This document shows positions 22,027 to 30,036 of a stretch of DNA of 56,740 bases, in pieces; within the stretch, counting starts at the first letter, position 1, and every line of letters starts with the position of its first letter. The stretch lies in assembly GCA_021789695.1 (NCBI GenBank), contig JAJYJH010000014.1, forward strand, positions 1-56,740, read 5' to 3'. The notes beneath the pieces are model-generated. The model saw only the letters and a program-made list of their open reading frames with translations. It did no database searches and had not been told where the DNA came from. The stretch comes from a bacterium (GTDB lineage Bacteria; Elusimicrobiota; Elusimicrobia; Elusimicrobiales; UBA9959). A program made the translations under genes and the position numbers.

Positions 22027-22803
22027 TCAACGCTTGATGGCCAGGCAGTCGTACATGACGCGCGAAGCCTTGTAGTTGGCGCGGGAGCGCACGAAGATTT
22101 TATATGCCCCGGCCTCGAAATCCTGCCTGTCCCCTATCGGCCCGAGTTCCGAGGTCTCCACGGCGCGCACCAGCTCTTCGTCCTGCGCCAGGGCTATGGC
22201 CTTGGCGCCGGTTCCGGCTATCAGGTAGAGCGGCACCAGGCGCTCCAGCCCCTGCGGCGTGACTATCGCCTGTTCAGCGACCAGCGCGTGCTTGGCCTCC
22301 AGCTTTATCATCCGCGCCTTGGCCTGCGGCATCATGGTGTCTATGGAAGCGGAGACCCAGTTCAGCAGTTCGTTGCGCACGTCGTTGAGCGAGGCAGCCT
22401 TTTCTATGTTCGCTATCCCCTGCCCCGCCTGGATGGCCTTGGCGAGTCCCGAAAGTTCCTTCAGATAGGTCATGCGCTGGTTCCCCGGGATATAGTACAT
22501 AACCAGCAACCGCACCTTCACGCCGTCGGAAGAGCCGTAGTCTATGCCGGTCGGGCTCCAGCCTATCACCGAGAACAACTCGCCGTCGCCGTCCACGCGG
22601 ATGTGCGGGCAGGCCCAGCCGCGGCCTATGCCGGTATTGGCCGACCGCTCGCGCTCCAGCACTCCCTCGGCCACGTCCACGTTGACGCTCACGTCAGGGA
22701 TGGCCTCCAGTATGGTGGCCATGTAGCGCAGCGCCTTCTCTTTGTCCGTCTCCGGCAGTTCTATCAGCCTGCCGTCCTGAAGCGCGGTAAGTATGCTTTT
22801 CAT
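22027..22803 (-). CDS. PTS EIIA-like (type 2, PtsN/fructose family) protein coupled to mgtA
   Basis: The first 150 residues match the PtsN/EIIA-fructose fold: ERERSANTGIGRGWACPHIR has the phospho-acceptor His of the family PHxR motif at about residue 67. FSVIGWSPTGIDYGSSDG and LKELSGLAKAI follow at the expected spacing. About 105 further residues form an extra C-terminal region that I cannot assign. Its ATG shares a base with the mgtA stop (TAATG), so the two are translated together. PtsN-type proteins in enterobacteria regulate ion transport by protein contact. A regulatory role on the Mg2+ pump is inferred from that and the coupling; no EI or HPr gene is in the window. Confidence 0.75.
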   Translation of the reverse strand: MKSILTALQDGRLIELPETDKEKALRYMATILEAIPDVSVNVDVAEGVLERERSANTGIGRGWACPHIRVDGDGELFSVIGWSPTGIDYGSSDGVKVRLLVMYYIPGNQRMTYLKELSGLAKAIQAGQGIANIEKAASLNDVRNELLNWVSASIDTMMPQAKARMIKLEAKHALVAEQAIVTPQGLERLVPLYLIAGTGAKAIALAQDEELVRAVETSELGPIGDRQDFEAGAYKIFVRSRANYKASRVMYDCLAIKR

Positions 22804-25454
22804 TAGTCGTCTCCGAATTTTTTATAAAACCAAACCTTCATGCCGTGCGTCAGCACCGCGTAGGCCAGCATGAAGCCCGTCATCCAGAGCCAGTATACGG
22901 CCGGCAGGGGAACGAAACCGAATTTATCGGAAAAGCGCGAGTACGGCAGGAAAATCCCGACCAGGATCACCAGCACGGTCGTGAAGACCATCGGCATCGC
23001 CGGCACGCTCTGGAGGAACGGGATCTTCTTCGTGCGGATGATGTAGACAATGAACGTCTGCGTCAGCAGCGATTCGACGAACCAGCCGGTGTGGAACAGT
23101 TTCTCCAGATAGGGGCCGTTCGGCCCGCCCGTCTTGAACGCGATGCAGCCGAAGAAGTACAGCATCAGGAAGTAGGTGGCGTAGTCGAAGATAGAACTCA
23201 TCGGCCCGATGAAGAGCATGAACTTCTTGATGTTGTCTATGTTCCACTTCTTCGGCTTGGCAATGTACTCGTCGTCGACGTTATCCATCGGGATGCCCGT
23301 CTGCGAGATGTCGTAGAGCAGGTTGTTCATCAATATCTGTATCGGGGCCATCGGCAGGAACGGCAGGAAGTAACTTCCGCCGACGACGCTGAACATATTG
23401 CCGAAATTGGAACTCGCGCCCATCTTGATGTACTTAACGATGTTGCCGAACACGCGGCGCCCCTCGATGATGCCGTCCTCCAGCACCATCAGGCTCTTTT
23501 CGAGCAGGATGATGTCTGCCGACTCTTTTGCCACGTCCACGGCCGTGTCCACCGAGATGCCGACGTCGGCCAGGTTCAGCGCCGGCGCGTCGTTGATGCC
23601 GTCCCCCATGTAGCCGACGACGTGTCCCGCTTTCTGCAGCGAGGAGATGATCTGCTCCTTCTGCGCCGGCGAAAGCCGCGCGAAAACGGTGTGCTCCTCC
23701 GCCGCCTTCCCCAGAGCGGCCTCGTCCAAGCCGGTCAACTGGCCGCCTGTGATCACGTTCTTCGCGTCCAGCCCGACGTCGCCGCAGATCTTCTGAGTCA
23801 CCAGCTCGTTGTCGCCGGTGAGGATCTTGACCGCCACGCCCATGCGCCCCAGCGCGGCCAGCGCCTTGGCAGAGGAGTCCTTCGGCGGGTCGAAGAAGGC
23901 CAGGTAGCCCAGCAGCACCAGGTCCTCCTCGTCCTTAGTGCTGAAGACGGTCTTGTCTTTTGGGAATTCCTTGTAAGCCACCGCGAGAACGCGGTAACCG
24001 TTCTTGGAGAGCCTCTCGTACTCCTCCATCAGGTCTCGCTTTATCACGTCTATCAGCGGCAGCACCTCGTCGTCAAGCTGGTAGGAGCCGCACGCGCTGT
24101 AAATATCCTCCACAGAGCCCTTCGTGATCATCACGTGCGAACCCTCATACTCTATAATGACCGACATCCGCTTGCGCTGGAAGTCGAACGGGATCTCGTC
24201 CACCTTGCTGCAGCTGCGCTCCACGTCGAGGTCCGTGTGCGAGAGGATGGAGCGGTCCAGCAGGTTGCGCAGTCCCGTCTGGTAATAGCTGTTCATGTAC
24301 GCGTAGCGCAGCACGTCGTCGCTGGGCCTGTTCGTCACGTCGACGAACTTCTCCAGCACGATGCGGTCCTGCGTTATCGTGCCGGTCTTGTCGGTACAGA
24401 GGATGTCTATAGCTCCAAAATTCTGTATCGAGCTTAGGCGCTTGACGATGACCTTCTTCTTGGACATCACCAGCGCGCCCTTGGAGAGGTTGACGGTCAG
24501 GATCATCGGCAGCATCTCCGGCGTAAGCCCGACGGCCACCGACATCGCGAATACCAGCGCGTCCAGCCAGTTGTGCTTGGTGAGCCCGACTATCAGGAAC
24601 ACGAGGCTCACCATCACCACCATGAACTTGATCATCAACCACGTAAAACCCTCGATACCGCGGTCGAAACTGGTCTGCGTCTTCTCCCCGGAAAGTTTCG
24701 CCGAGATCGAGCCCAGGTAGGTGCGCTCGCCGGTGTTGACGGCGACGCCGCGCGCGGTGCCGCTGACCACGTAGCTGCCCTGGAAGCAGGCGTTGGGCAG
24801 CTCTATCACGCTCTTCGGCGGCTCGCCTGCGAGCTCGGCGGTCTTCTCTATCGGCATGGATTCGCCGGTAAGCGCGGACTGGCTCAGGAAGAAGTCCTTG
24901 GCGGAGATCACGCGCAGGTCCGCCGGGATTATCGCGCCGGCCTGCAGCACGACGACGTCTCCGGGCACCAGCTCCACCGTCGGGATCTCCGTCTCCTTGC
25001 CGCCGCGGATCACCAGTGTGTTAGACTGCACCATCTTCTGCAGTTCTTCCACGGCCTTGCCGGAGCGCGTCTCCTGTACGTAGGAGAGTATCACGCTCAG
25101 CAGCACCATGCCGCCCACCACAACGGCGGAGCGCACGTCGCCCATCCACAGCGAGATGCCGCCTATCACCAGCAGCTGTATGGCCAGCGGGTTCTTGAAA
25201 CGGCCTATGATATCGAAAACGAAGAACTTCTTTTCTTTTTTGGTCAGCGCGTTGAAGCCGTACCTCTTGCGGACGGCCTCGGCCAGTTCTATCGAAAGCC
25301 CGTCCCTGGAGGAGTCCAACCCGGAAAGAGCCGCGTCCGGAGACGCCGAGCAGACGTCTATCAGCCGCTTGTCGCTCTCCGAAAGCGCTGCGGCCTGGGA
25401 TTTGACGCCCTGCCTGACCAAGGATGGGACCAACTTCATGAAGGGCAGCCTCAT
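22803..25454 (-). CDS. mgtA: Magnesium-transporting P-type ATPase (MgtA family)
   Basis: A P3B-type ATPase importing Mg2+ at the cost of ATP. In order it shows the TGES actuator loop, the family motif GLTPEMLPM in the fourth membrane helix and the phosphorylation motif DKTGTITQD. Further on are KILTGDNELVTQKIC and the hinge GYMGDGINDAPAL, with about ten membrane segments. The ATG at 25454 gives 883 residues and sits seven bases after a TATAAT box, suggesting a leaderless message; an ATG at 25439 with GAGG nine bases before it is the alternative. No long Mg2+-sensing leader exists here: the box abuts the gene. Confidence 0.93.
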   Translation of the reverse strand: MRLPFMKLVPSLVRQGVKSQAAALSESDKRLIDVCSASPDAALSGLDSSRDGLSIELAEAVRKRYGFNALTKKEKKFFVFDIIGRFKNPLAIQLLVIGGISLWMGDVRSAVVVGGMVLLSVILSYVQETRSGKAVEELQKMVQSNTLVIRGGKETEIPTVELVPGDVVVLQAGAIIPADLRVISAKDFFLSQSALTGESMPIEKTAELAGEPPKSVIELPNACFQGSYVVSGTARGVAVNTGERTYLGSISAKLSGEKTQTSFDRGIEGFTWLMIKFMVVMVSLVFLIVGLTKHNWLDALVFAMSVAVGLTPEMLPMILTVNLSKGALVMSKKKVIVKRLSSIQNFGAIDILCTDKTGTITQDRIVLEKFVDVTNRPSDDVLRYAYMNSYYQTGLRNLLDRSILSHTDLDVERSCSKVDEIPFDFQRKRMSVIIEYEGSHVMITKGSVEDIYSACGSYQLDDEVLPLIDVIKRDLMEEYERLSKNGYRVLAVAYKEFPKDKTVFSTKDEEDLVLLGYLAFFDPPKDSSAKALAALGRMGVAVKILTGDNELVTQKICGDVGLDAKNVITGGQLTGLDEAALGKAAEEHTVFARLSPAQKEQIISSLQKAGHVVGYMGDGINDAPALNLADVGISVDTAVDVAKESADIILLEKSLMVLEDGIIEGRRVFGNIVKYIKMGASSNFGNMFSVVGGSYFLPFLPMAPIQILMNNLLYDISQTGIPMDNVDDEYIAKPKKWNIDNIKKFMLFIGPMSSIFDYATYFLMLYFFGCIAFKTGGPNGPYLEKLFHTGWFVESLLTQTFIVYIIRTKKIPFLQSVPAMPMVFTTVLVILVGIFLPYSRFSDKFGFVPLPAVYWLWMTGFMLAYAVLTHGMKVWFYKKFGDD

Positions 25455-25461
25455 ATCTGAA

Positions 25462-25467
25462 ATTATA
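25462..25467 (-). promoter_or_regulatory. TATAAT box seven bases before mgtA
   Basis: On the minus strand TTGTGG, 18 bases, then TATAAT, then TTCAGAT and the ATG. The spacer includes the palindrome CGGCGCGCCG, a possible operator. A start of transcription at the ATG would leave no leader. Confidence 0.6.
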
Positions 25468-25536
25468 TACCTTACCGGCGCGCCGCCACAATTCAAATTC
25501 CGCGCAAAAACCGTGCAGGGCGCGCCGGCGATTTTA

Positions 25537-25925: not shown

Positions 25926-26669
25926 TCAGAGGTATTTGAGCGCCATCGGTACGTCGTCGGTCCAGACGGCCCGCGCCCCCATTTCCGCCAGTCTCCTGAC
26001 GTCGCGCGGATTATTAGCAATACCCGCCGAAACCTCTACACCCTCGGCCGCCAGCATATCGGCCTGCGCCCTGAAATCGAAGGCGGCCGCACCGGAATAG
26101 AAGAGCTCCCTGGCCAGCGGCCAGTGCACCCAGCCGGCGCAGATTTTCGAGGCCCCCGCCTTCTCGGCTACAGCCTTCATCCGGTACGGGAAAAGCGGCA
26201 TGACCGCGCAGCCTATTCCCGGCACGGCCTCCCGCGCGGCCTTCAGGAAAGAGGTCCTGTGCTGGAAAGCGAGCAGATAGGACCTGGCCTGCACCCCGGC
26301 CCTGCTTATCTGGCTGGCCAGGTCCGCCGCGTCCGAAGGGCGGCCGAGCGCCAGTTCGAAATAGACCTCCGCGGCGGGGCTGAGTATCATCAGGTTCAGG
26401 ATGTCATCCAGGTGGGCTATGGGCTCGCCGCCGTTCAAGCGCAGGTTTTTCAGATGGTCCCAGGAGGTTTCGGAAACGCGCCAGCCGCGCCCGCAGAGGC
26501 GCGCCGTAGTGGCGTCGTGGAACACCGCGAACTGCCCGTCCGCCGTGCGGCGGATGTCGCATTCCACCGCCGAGGCGCCGTCGGAGAAAGCGCGCCGAAA
26601 GGCGACCAGCGTGTTCTCCGGGGCTCTCGACATGCCCCCCCTGTGGGCGTATACGGATATTCTAGGCAT
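25926..26669 (-). CDS. ugpQ: Glycerophosphodiester phosphodiesterase
   Basis: GDPDs hydrolyse glycerophosphodiesters to glycerol 3-phosphate and an alcohol. The 247-residue TIM-barrel protein opens with ISVYAHRGGMSRAPENTLVA (catalytic His-Arg and metal Glu-Asn), then AVECDIRRTADGQFAVFHDA (second Glu/Asp and catalytic His). It ends ARAVWTDDVPMALKYL. It has no signal peptide, so it is a cytoplasmic UgpQ type. It follows the CdaR-like mini-gene on the same strand. Confidence 0.92.
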   Translation of the reverse strand: MPRISVYAHRGGMSRAPENTLVAFRRAFSDGASAVECDIRRTADGQFAVFHDATTARLCGRGWRVSETSWDHLKNLRLNGGEPIAHLDDILNLMILSPAAEVYFELALGRPSDAADLASQISRAGVQARSYLLAFQHRTSFLKAAREAVPGIGCAVMPLFPYRMKAVAEKAGASKICAGWVHWPLARELFYSGAAAFDFRAQADMLAAEGVEVSAGIANNPRDVRRLAEMGARAVWTDDVPMALKYL

Positions 26670-26705: not shown

Positions 26706-26807
26706 TCAGGGCCGGCCGCCGGTGATAAAATACCAGATTAGCAGCGCCACTATCAGGGACAGCAGCTTTATCTGCCAGTTGCGCGAAACGAGTTCGGGAA
26801 TCTTCAT
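26706..26807 (-). CDS. 33-residue CdaR/YbbR-like membrane anchor (micro-protein)
   Basis: ATG at 26807, TGA at 26706. The product has a polar N-terminus (MKIPELVSRNW) and one hydrophobic helix (IKLLSLIVALLIWYFI) ending in TGGRP. This matches how CdaR (YbbR) proteins begin: an NW-x-LKLLSL helix ending in LW. The extracytoplasmic YbbR repeats that should follow are absent. It begins five bases after the cdaA stop, exactly where cdaR sits in cdaA-cdaR-glmM operons, so it is read as a reduced CdaR. It could instead be a truncated pseudogene. Confidence 0.6.
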   Translation of the reverse strand: MKIPELVSRNWQIKLLSLIVALLIWYFITGGRP

Positions 26808-26812
26808 CTTGT

Positions 26813-27628
26813 TCAAGGCTGGGAGGCGGCGTCCCCGGCCGGAGGCGGAGGCTCGTGGCGAGGGGAACGGCGCAGCAGCGTCTTCTCCGCCTTGGAGCGG
26901 TACAACTGATAAAGCATGGCCTCCAGATCCTTGGGGTCCACGGACTGTTGAAGTTTACCGTTGCGCGCCACCGCCAGCGCCCCCGTCTCTTCGGAAACTA
27001 TCACTATTATCGAGTCCGCCACCTCGCTGAGACCCAGCGCGGCGCGATGCCTCATGCCCAGTATTTTGGAAAGCTCCTGCTGTTCAGTCAGCGGCAGGAT
27101 GCAGCCTGCCGCGACAAGCCGGTTGTTGGCGATTACGGCGGCTCCGTCGTGCAGCAACGTGTTCTCGTGGAAGACGGTCAGCAGCAGCTCCTTGGAGATC
27201 TCGCCGTTGATGCGCACCCCGGTCTCCACTATGTCGCGCAGGGCCATATCCTGCTCCAGCACAATCAACATGCCCATCTTCTCGCCCATCGCCTGGCGCA
27301 CCGCCTCCATCATCTCGCCGATGAAGCGGTATTCCTGGGACACCATCATGCGGCCCAGCGGGTTTGAGCCTATGTTGGCCAGCGCAAAACGTATCTCCGG
27401 CTGGAAAACGACTATCAGCAGCACCATACCGGCCACCCAGAACTGCTGCATCAGCCAGACCGTGGCAGAAAGGTGAAGGAATTGGGCGACGGCGGTGACG
27501 ACGGCCAGAATGGAGACGCCCCAAATGACCTGCATGGCGCGGGTGCCCTTAATCAGCAGTATCAGGCGGTATACGATATAGTACACCACCGCGATATCCA
27601 CTACGGTCCTGAGGTAGTTAAGGTACAC
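26813..27628 (-). CDS. cdaA: Diadenylate cyclase CdaA
   Basis: CdaA makes c-di-AMP, which controls osmolyte and potassium transport and links to cell-wall synthesis. The 271-residue protein has three N-terminal membrane helices (residues about 7-78), then the DisA-N catalytic domain with LLHDGAAVIANNRLVAAGC (DGA motif) and GMRHRAALGLSE (RHR motif), and a disordered Pro-rich tail. Translation starts at a GTG at 27628 with GAGAGGA just upstream. ftsH lies before it and a CdaR-like anchor after it; glmM, the usual third gene, is 5 kb downstream. Confidence 0.95.
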   Translation of the reverse strand: MYLNYLRTVVDIAVVYYIVYRLILLIKGTRAMQVIWGVSILAVVTAVAQFLHLSATVWLMQQFWVAGMVLLIVVFQPEIRFALANIGSNPLGRMMVSQEYRFIGEMMEAVRQAMGEKMGMLIVLEQDMALRDIVETGVRINGEISKELLLTVFHENTLLHDGAAVIANNRLVAAGCILPLTEQQELSKILGMRHRAALGLSEVADSIIVIVSEETGALAVARNGKLQQSVDPKDLEAMLYQLYRSKAEKTLLRRSPRHEPPPPAGDAASQP

Positions 27629-27667: not shown

Positions 27668-29494
27668 CTAGGCCTTCGCGGCGTCGGGCGCGGCCTTGGA
27701 GGCGGCTATCAGGGAGTCTATCTCCTCAGCCTCCACCACCTCTTTTTCCATCAGCCTGCCGGCGATGGCGTCCAACGCGGCGCGGTTGCCGGTCAGGGCG
27801 GCCTTGGCCTTCATATAACAGTCGTTGACAATGCGCTTAATCTCTTCGTCCACGCTGCGTGCCGTCTCGTTGGAGTAGCCGGGCTGGCGCACGATGTCGC
27901 GGCCAAGGAAAACCTCGCTTTCGTCCTTCTTGAGCGTCAGCGGCCCGATTCTGTCGCTCATGCCGAATTCCAGCACCATCTTCTGAGCGAAACTCGTGAC
28001 CTTGGACAGGTCGTCGTGCGCGCCGGTGGTTATCTCGCCGATGACTATCTCCTCGGCGGCGCGGCCGCCCAGCAGCACGCAGAGGCGGTTGAGGATCTCC
28101 GTCTTGGAGGTCAGATATTTGTCCTCGAGCGGCATCTGCATCGTGTAGCCGAGCGCGGGTCCGCGGGGGATGATGGTGACCTTGTGCACCGGGTCGCAGC
28201 CGGGCAGAACCTTGGCCACCAGCGTATGGCCGGCCTCGTGGTAGGCCACTATCCGCTTTTCCTGGTCAGAGATGATGCGGGACTTGCGCTGAGGGCCGGC
28301 CATCATCTTCTCGATGGCCTCCTCGAGGTCCTTCTGGTCCACGGACTTTTGCTCCTTCTTGGCCGCTATGATGGCGGCCTCGTTGACGATGTTGGCCAGA
28401 TCGGCGCCGACGAAGCCCGGGGTGTGCCGGGCTATGACGGCCAAATCGGTCCCCTCGCCCAGCTTCACCTTGGCGGAATGGACGTTCAAAATCTCCTGGC
28501 GGCCCTTGATGTCGGGTACCGGCACATTGATTCGCCTGTCGAAGCGGCCGGGGCGCAGCAGCGCGTTGTCCAGCACGTCGGGCCGATTGGTAGCGCCTAT
28601 CAGGATGATGCCTTCCTTGGACTCGAAGCCGTCGAGCTCGACCAGCAACTGGTTAAGCGTCTGCTCGCGTTCGTCGTGGCCGCCGCCTATGCCGGCGAAG
28701 CGGGAGCGGCCGACGGCGTCGAGTTCGTCCAGAAATACTATCGCCGGGGCGCTTTTCTTGGCGCGCTCAAACAGGTCGCGCACGCGGCTGGCGCCCACTC
28801 CCACGAACATCTCCACGAACTCGGAGCCGGAAGAGGTGAAGAAAGGCACACCGGCCTCGCCGGCCACCGCCCGGGCCAGCAGCGTCTTGCCGGTTCCCGG
28901 GGGACCGTACAACAGCACGCCCTTGGGCAGTTCGCCGCCCAGCATCTGGTATTTCTTCGGGTTCTTGAGATAATCCACTATGTCCCGCAGTTCCTCCTTG
29001 GTCTCTTCGCAGCCGGCCACGTCCTTGAACGTGACCTTCTGCTTCTTGAGGTCCTGCAGCCTGGCGCGCGACTTGCCAAAGGACATCGCCTGTTTGCCGC
29101 CCATCTGCGCCTGGCGGATGAACAGGAACCACCAGATAAAGATGAACGCCGCCACCCAGCCTATATTGAGCAGCAACGAGGCTATCCAACTGCGGTCGGC
29201 CTCGGAGGAGAACTTGGCGACCCCGGCGGTTTCCATGTCCGAGATCAGGTTGGGATCGTTCATAGGGATCGTCCTGAAGTGGACGCTCTTCCCGTTATCG
29301 GTCATTTCGCCTTTTATCAGGTCCTGGCTCACGGAAACGTCCTGCACCTGCTTGTCCTTCAGCCTGGCCTTGAACTCGGAATAGGGAATCTCCTGCTCGG
29401 TCTCCCCCCCCTTCATGCTCTGGTAGACGGCGATGAAGAGCGTGAACGCCAGCAACCAGAAGAGAAGTTGTCTTAAATTCTTTTTCAGCGGCAT
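27668..29494 (-). CDS. ftsH: ATP-dependent zinc metalloprotease FtsH
   Basis: FtsH degrades membrane and regulatory proteins. The 608-residue protein has two membrane helices (about 8-25 and 108-126) around a periplasmic loop, the AAA+ domain with [19 protein letters not shown] (Walker A) and [12 protein letters not shown] (Walker B), the second-region-of-homology RPGRFDRR and the protease HEAGH. AAGGAA precedes the ATG at 29494 inside the end of hpt (10-base overlap). hpt-ftsH pairing is widespread. Confidence 0.97.
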
Positions 29495-30036
29495 GTTTTG
29501 TTTCCTTCGATTATTTCCCGTTTCAGCACCCCGACGTAAGGCAGATTGCGGTAGATGCCGTTATAGTCGAGGCCGTAGCCCACCACGAACTTGTCCGGGA
29601 TGGTGAAGCCCGTGTACTTTATCGGCACCTCGGCCCGGCGACGGCTGGGCTTGTCCAGCAGCGTACAAACCTCGAGGGAACGCGGGCGGCGGGTCCCCAG
29701 GTTCTGCAGCATATAACTCATCGTCAGACCCGAATCCACGATATCCTCTACTATCAGCACGTCCGATCCCTCTATACTTTCCTTAAGGTCCAACAGTATA
29801 CGCACCACCCCTGTGGAACGCTCTCCGGAGTAGGAGGACAGCATCATGAAGTCCAGGCGCACGTCGGACGTGACGCGCCTGGCCAAGTCCGTAAGGAAGA
29901 AGACGCTGCCCTTCAGCACGCCGACCAGCGTGAGGCAACGGCCCTCGTAGTCCGCGGAGATCTTTTCGCCCAACTTCTCTATGCCGGCGGAAAGCTCCTC
30001 CGTGGAGATGAGCACCTCCTGCAGGTCCTTGTGCAT
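29485..30036 (-). CDS. hpt: Hypoxanthine phosphoribosyltransferase
   Basis: Hpt salvages hypoxanthine and guanine with PRPP. The 183-residue type I PRTase has VGVLKGSVFFLTDLARRV (PPi loop), MMLSSYSGERSTG (flexible loop), VLIVEDIVDSGLTMSYML (PRPP motif) and PDKFVVGYGLDYNGIYRNLP (base site). The ATG at 30036 follows a TAAAAT box by seven bases and has no Shine-Dalgarno, suggesting a leaderless start. ftsH overlaps its end. No tilS precedes it in this window. Confidence 0.95.
   Translation of the reverse strand: MHKDLQEVLISTEELSAGIEKLGEKISADYEGRCLTLVGVLKGSVFFLTDLARRVTSDVRLDFMMLSSYSGERSTGVVRILLDLKESIEGSDVLIVEDIVDSGLTMSYMLQNLGTRRPRSLEVCTLLDKPSRRRAEVPIKYTGFTIPDKFVVGYGLDYNGIYRNLPYVGVLKREIIEGNKTCR

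Follow-up and report, generated by a model that had tools for sequence, protein, structure and literature searches.

c-di-AMP is a second messenger, essential in many bacteria. In the stretch of DNA analysed here, which comprises 56,740 nucleotides and is hereafter called the window, the gene of a membrane diadenylate cyclase, cdaA, is directly followed by a minute open reading frame, which the first-pass annotation had described as carrying the N-terminal helix of the CdaR regulator and nothing else. The question raised by this locus is whether such a short product is a minimal CdaR, as that annotation had proposed, or the result of a recent truncation, as it had alternatively considered. The genes concerned are arranged in a row, as follows.

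29485 to 30036, minus strand: gene of an hpt-like phosphoribosyltransferase (PF00156, E = 1.7e-29), overlapping ftsH
27668 to 29494, minus strand: ftsH (Peptidase_M41, AAA and FtsH_ext), upstream of cdaA with a 39-base gap
26813 to 27628, minus strand: cdaA, encoding a membrane diadenylate cyclase of 271 aa, GTG start (PF02457, E = 7e-39; PF19293, E = 2e-5)
26706 to 26807, minus strand: gene of the helix-only, CdaR-like microprotein of 33 aa, ATG start and TGA stop (ORF and stop conserved in the genus, dN/dS 0.079, present phylum-wide)
26724 to 26780, minus strand: predicted membrane helix of the microprotein, N10 to I28 (from hydropathy and per-position conservation over 182 helices)
25926 to 26669, minus strand: gene of a GDPD-family glycerophosphodiester phosphodiesterase, gdpD-like (PF03009, E = 1e-23), next downstream of the microprotein

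Downstream of the GDPD gene lies an 897-aa ORF (22803 to 25496, minus strand), by its sequence apparently a P-type ATPase of the magnesium-transporting type.

CdaA of the window is composed of an N-terminal membrane domain (PF19293) and a DAC domain (PF02457), and its translation contains LHDGAAV and GMRHRAA, which hold the DGA and RHR motifs of the DAC domain. The short helix-only ORF directly after cdaA is confirmed: it encodes MKIPELVSRNWQIKLLSLIVALLIWYFITGGRP, 33 aa followed by a stop, and its ATG is separated from the cdaA stop by 5 nt. An alternative TTG start, overlapping the cdaA stop, would give a product of 36 aa; the ATG is favoured, because the proteins of relatives mostly begin with M-N-I-P-E-L-F. 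Only 36 bases separate the stop of the microprotein from the ATG of the GDPD gene, and a decayed YbbR domain therefore cannot fit there.

The first-pass annotation had predicted that a real microprotein would show, in related genomes, a conserved stop after the helix and purifying selection, and both are found. In the genus, the count being limited to the genomes whose region downstream of cdaA is readable, the identical ORF follows cdaA in 31 genomes out of 31, the window's own included, and the position of its stop varies by at most two residues, the proteins ending 6–9 residues past a conserved W. The gap to cdaA is larger at a few of these loci (27 nt at L022, 74 nt at L008), with an unchanged peptide. 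The dN/dS ratio of the microprotein is 0.079 (pS 0.516, pN 0.066; 27 codons and 465 pairs, which are non-independent), with a pN/pS bootstrap range over codons of 0.06–0.23. A 130-codon piece of cdaA, taken for comparison, gives a value near it (0.096), and the two wrong frames of the microprotein give ratios above 2. Changes affect 36% of third positions versus 3% of second positions. Mean identity is 84% within the ORF, whereas it drops to 27%, i.e., to chance, over the 81 nt past the stop. The peptide is clearly under purifying selection, and its stop is a fixed boundary.

These results bear directly on the fate of the missing outer domain, whose absence could suggest that the microprotein is the remnant of a decaying CdaR gene. 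Such an origin is hardly tenable, as it is contradicted by the dN/dS of 0.08 and by the excess of third-position changes, and as the stop is constant across the genus and helix-only forms occur in two phyla. The recent truncation first envisaged is likewise rejected, the same ORF and stop being present in all 31 genus genomes under strong selection. A decayed YbbR sequence after the ORF, which would have spoken against a microprotein, is excluded both by the shortness of the intergenic gap and by the downstream DNA, unrelated between species. The reading as a minimal CdaR is supported by the conserved stop, the low dN/dS and the absence of any YbbR remnant in the 36 bases.

The relationship to CdaR itself was addressed by a helix-only scan of the genome_contigs collection (84,980 species), made with a narrower alignment set and disregarding the sequence downstream of the helix. 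It gave 32 loci, every one of them directly downstream of cdaA. At the 19 loci outside Elusimicrobiota, which come from Bacillota, Thermodesulfobacteriota, Acidobacteriota and Aminicenantota, Rokuibacteriota, Omnitrophota, Peregrinibacteria and Armatimonadota, the ORF runs on into CdaR in all cases (stop-to-stop frames of 223–614 aa, nearly all of 223–437 aa), and at the 13 Elusimicrobiota loci it stops, again without exception, only a few residues past the helix. The helix is therefore the anchor of CdaR, and the stop is the rule in the phylum. The profile of the microprotein, for its part, recovers CdaR N-termini adjoining cdaA in other phyla, with identical conserved positions. Its match in the window's own genome is far beyond chance (E = 2.5e-15), a value to be read with the fact that the window's own sequence is among the 30 rows of the profile. 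A YbbR domain in frame after the same helix had been put forward beforehand as a refutation; such genes do exist, but only outside the phylum or, within Elusimicrobiota, in a separate CdaA lineage; they do not refute the microprotein and show instead its homology to CdaR.

One-helix proteins are easily confused, and the microprotein falls under no Pfam or NCBIfam model (the window ORF has no Pfam match, and the set has chance-level matches only). It could thus be argued that what lies after cdaA is there by chance, being either a small membrane protein with no relation to CdaR or a leader ORF in which the peptide is irrelevant. We regard this as very improbable, since the helix profile picks the CdaR N-terminus beside cdaA in other phyla in 19 cases out of 19, and since residues are conserved, beyond the mere reading frame. 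For divergent relatives, the homology of a one-helix peptide rests on few residues.

The anatomy of the helix is common to the microproteins and to full CdaRs. In the microprotein of the window, hydropathy is maximal (2.25) over residues 13–29. Over 182 helices, full CdaRs included, five positions are conserved, namely N10 (94%), K14 (97%), A/S17 (99%), A/S21 (98%) and W25 (96%), and they lie on one side of the helix in both kinds of protein; in the window this face reads N10, K14, S17, A21 and W25. The helical periodicity of conservation is supported by permutation in the larger sets (p about 0.005–0.01) and is not significant in the smaller sets of fused helices alone. As for orientation, the helix is deduced to run from inside to outside, as in CdaR, because natural fusions attach it after the cytoplasmic DAC domain.

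Whether an outer domain could be provided by another gene was considered as well. PF07949 (YbbR) is not found in the window's own genome, and a YbbR encoded elsewhere in that genome is thus rejected; it is found neither in any genome of the window's family nor in 336 of the 341 Elusimicrobiota genomes, only five having a recognisable YbbR. As a positive control, the same model detects YbbR in all 19 genomes taken from other phyla, which were selected for having the helix. It remains possible, but unlikely, that the helix serves to dock an unrecognised extracytoplasmic protein encoded elsewhere, which would act as a sensor in trans: CdaR normally has an outer domain, a highly diverged YbbR-like protein could escape PF07949, and some Omnitrophota proteins are intermediate in size, with a reduced outer part. 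The success of PF07949 in the controls and its silence in the whole family of the window argue otherwise, as do the ends of the genus proteins, 6–9 residues after the conserved W, which leave almost nothing outside to dock on. As its ORF stops after the helix, the microprotein does not meet the YbbR-domain criterion of CdaR; it is accordingly not classed as a CdaR but as a helix-only variant with the anchor of the CdaR family.

At the scale of the phylum, a DAC domain is present in 221 of 341 Elusimicrobiota genomes, and 161 CdaA loci were read. A separate one-helix gene is found at 119 of them, encoding a protein of median length 32 aa (mostly 26–44 aa); its start lies within −20 to +30 of the cdaA stop in 106 of these 119 cases and overlaps that stop by 4 bases in 41. 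In families f7 and f8, the helix gene encodes an additional short tail (about 20 residues). Elsewhere the helix is fused in frame to the CdaA C-terminus, either ending there (19 of 161 loci; family f15, also genomes G036 and G138) or continuing as a single CdaA-helix-YbbR protein (11 of 161), and the fusions of f5, f6, f12, f14 and f27 retain an outer part of the YbbR type.

No nearby helix is found at 11 of the 161 loci, and one more is cut off by a contig end. The helix-less loci are those of f10 and f11 (five loci), of f19 (five loci) and of genome G303 in f21 (one). The helix is thus not strictly required, as f10, f11 and f19 keep cdaA without it nearby. In f10 and f11, cdaA is followed by a glmM-like gene and in f19 by a gyrB-like gene; the names glmM, gyrB and pdxJ given to neighbour genes here and below are based on motifs recognised in them and not on a search. 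These three families could be useful as natural controls (L094–L097, L043, L046, L100–L102, L202). In G303, a helix gene exists away from cdaA, before pdxJ- and glmM-like genes.

The link between the helix and cdaA extends to their co-occurrence. When the 341 genomes are searched with the microprotein profile, strong matches are obtained almost only in CdaA-containing genomes. In the sister family f2, which belongs to the same order, no DAC domain is found (G037–G060 and other f2 genomes), and helix matches are at noise level except in G124, whose helix gene lies at a contig end, so that its upstream neighbour could not be read, and precedes pdxJ- and glmM-like genes. c-di-AMP synthesis may have been lost in f2. 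In two reduced genomes of Endomicrobium type (G250 and G256, loci L194 and L195), cdaA is a pseudogene with frame breaks and the helix ORF is also broken; this joint decay is how a partner of CdaA should behave.

The neighbouring ftsH, which in the window lies upstream of cdaA at a distance of 39 bases, raises the possibility of a function in protein quality control, in which the helix would guard CdaA from FtsH or present it to this protease. We give little credit to it, because the same anchor follows cdaA within full CdaRs in many phyla, and because the helix gene of G303 sits beside pdxJ- and glmM-like genes.

Helix-only genes are not confined to Elusimicrobiota. In Omnitrophota, the helix is found in 144 of 193 genomes, and the 148 open frames listed with it are of 100 aa or less in 75 cases, of 101–200 aa in 20 and longer in 53. 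Forty of these loci, picked by frame length, were sampled: cdaA is directly upstream in all 40, and most are helix-only. Once three more loci are added, the aligned set comprises 33 helix-only and 10 longer genes. Four Omnitrophota loci (L271, L272, L274 and L275) encode CdaR-like proteins of about 150–160 aa with a short outer part, between full CdaR and the helix-only form. Among the matches sampled in Acidobacteriota (51) and Patescibacteria (14), no frame shorter than 170 aa was found.

To trace the history of these forms, 201 CdaA domains were placed on a quick FastTree tree, in which the deep branches have weak support. The separate microproteins belong to the main Elusimicrobiota clade (113 rows, support 99); a second Elusimicrobiota lineage (27 rows, support 100) gathers the CdaA-helix-YbbR fusions and the helix-ending fusions of f15; the third group is that of Omnitrophota (43 rows, support 99), whose first branch contains full CdaRs. 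Three separate, well-supported CdaA groups thus include helix-only forms. Fusion of CdaA to the helix arose again inside the microprotein clade, in G036/G138, in L129 (with a long open frame in G321 as well) and in L133. At least 13 state changes are needed on this tree; their exact number and direction are not fixed by it, given its weak deep support. Genome G331 carries two cdaA genes, one with a separate helix microprotein and the other as a CdaA-helix-YbbR fusion (L067/L118/L196 on G331:C12, and L117 on G331:C3), a pair that corresponds to the two deep lineages of CdaA in Elusimicrobiota.

What the microprotein does has to be inferred from the published work on CdaR. In a review and in later articles, CdaR is described as contacting CdaA through the membrane segments (PMC10243994, PMC8573169, PMC6368335), and a further article cites that CdaR co-expression in E. 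coli can raise c-di-AMP (PMC8316131). No conclusive regulatory role of YbbR was obtained in S. aureus (PMC6368335), and published accounts call the mode of action of CdaR on CdaA unclear or unknown (PMC8573169, PMC10243994). No solved membrane complex of CdaA and CdaR was found, the longest CdaA chain (9g69) being described as a CdaA-DAC/GlmM complex, and our literature searches found no paper on a YbbR-less CdaR.

The microprotein shares homology with the anchor helix of CdaR, is linked to cdaA and is under strong purifying selection. That it is a real, selected, lone CdaR anchor, inferred to pack on CdaA as an intramembrane subunit, is the best explanation and one that we consider likely, in the absence of binding, expression or c-di-AMP data. 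The microprotein would insert with its N-terminus in the cytoplasm, as the natural fusions suggest, and the face formed by N10, K14, A/S17, A/S21 and W25 would pack against the membrane helices of CdaA. It could then be a constitutive intramembrane subunit setting the assembly or the activity of the cyclase with no sensor outside the cytoplasm, a role inferred because CdaR is reported to bind CdaA via membrane segments (PMC10243994). The helix-helix contact is itself an inference, drawn from the published CdaR work, the natural fusions and the conserved helix face; binding to CdaA, an effect on c-di-AMP and translation of the microprotein are also inferred.

When compared with the CdaR/YbbR family, the microprotein shares the slot directly after cdaA, the helix motif N-W-x-L-K...A/S...A...W and the N-in topology implied by the fusions; it differs by lacking the YbbR domain and by its size (mostly 26–44 aa versus 223–437 aa for CdaR). 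CdaA-CdaR fusion proteins have been reported in some streptococci (PMC10243994). CdaA is similarly joined to the CdaR membrane segment in G036, G138 and f15, but these fusions end right after the helix, without YbbR. A tiny single-helix subunit working on a larger membrane protein would also resemble known cases. CydX, KdpF and AcrZ are one-helix membrane microproteins riding on a larger membrane partner. The CdaA-linked helix differs from them in being traceable to a larger regulator, of which it is the anchor, and in having a second-messenger cyclase as partner.

The retention of the bare helix across nearly the whole phylum and in a second one suggests that it is the working core of the CdaR regulator. 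With CdaA kept throughout, the loci form a natural deletion series (full CdaR, CdaR with a reduced outer part, the helix by itself, its fusion to CdaA, and no helix), which separates the helix from the sensor and supplies natural constructs for finding out which of the two acts on the cyclase. They also reveal a widespread microprotein family, devoid of any Pfam or NCBIfam model and tied to c-di-AMP. We lean, with some reserve, towards a broader view: in at least two phyla CdaA would be a membrane enzyme made of two parts, the second being just a helix of about 30 residues, the evolutionary core of CdaR would be intramembrane, with a YbbR sensor that is optional and was lost several times, and c-di-AMP synthesis in these phyla would be set by a microprotein family.
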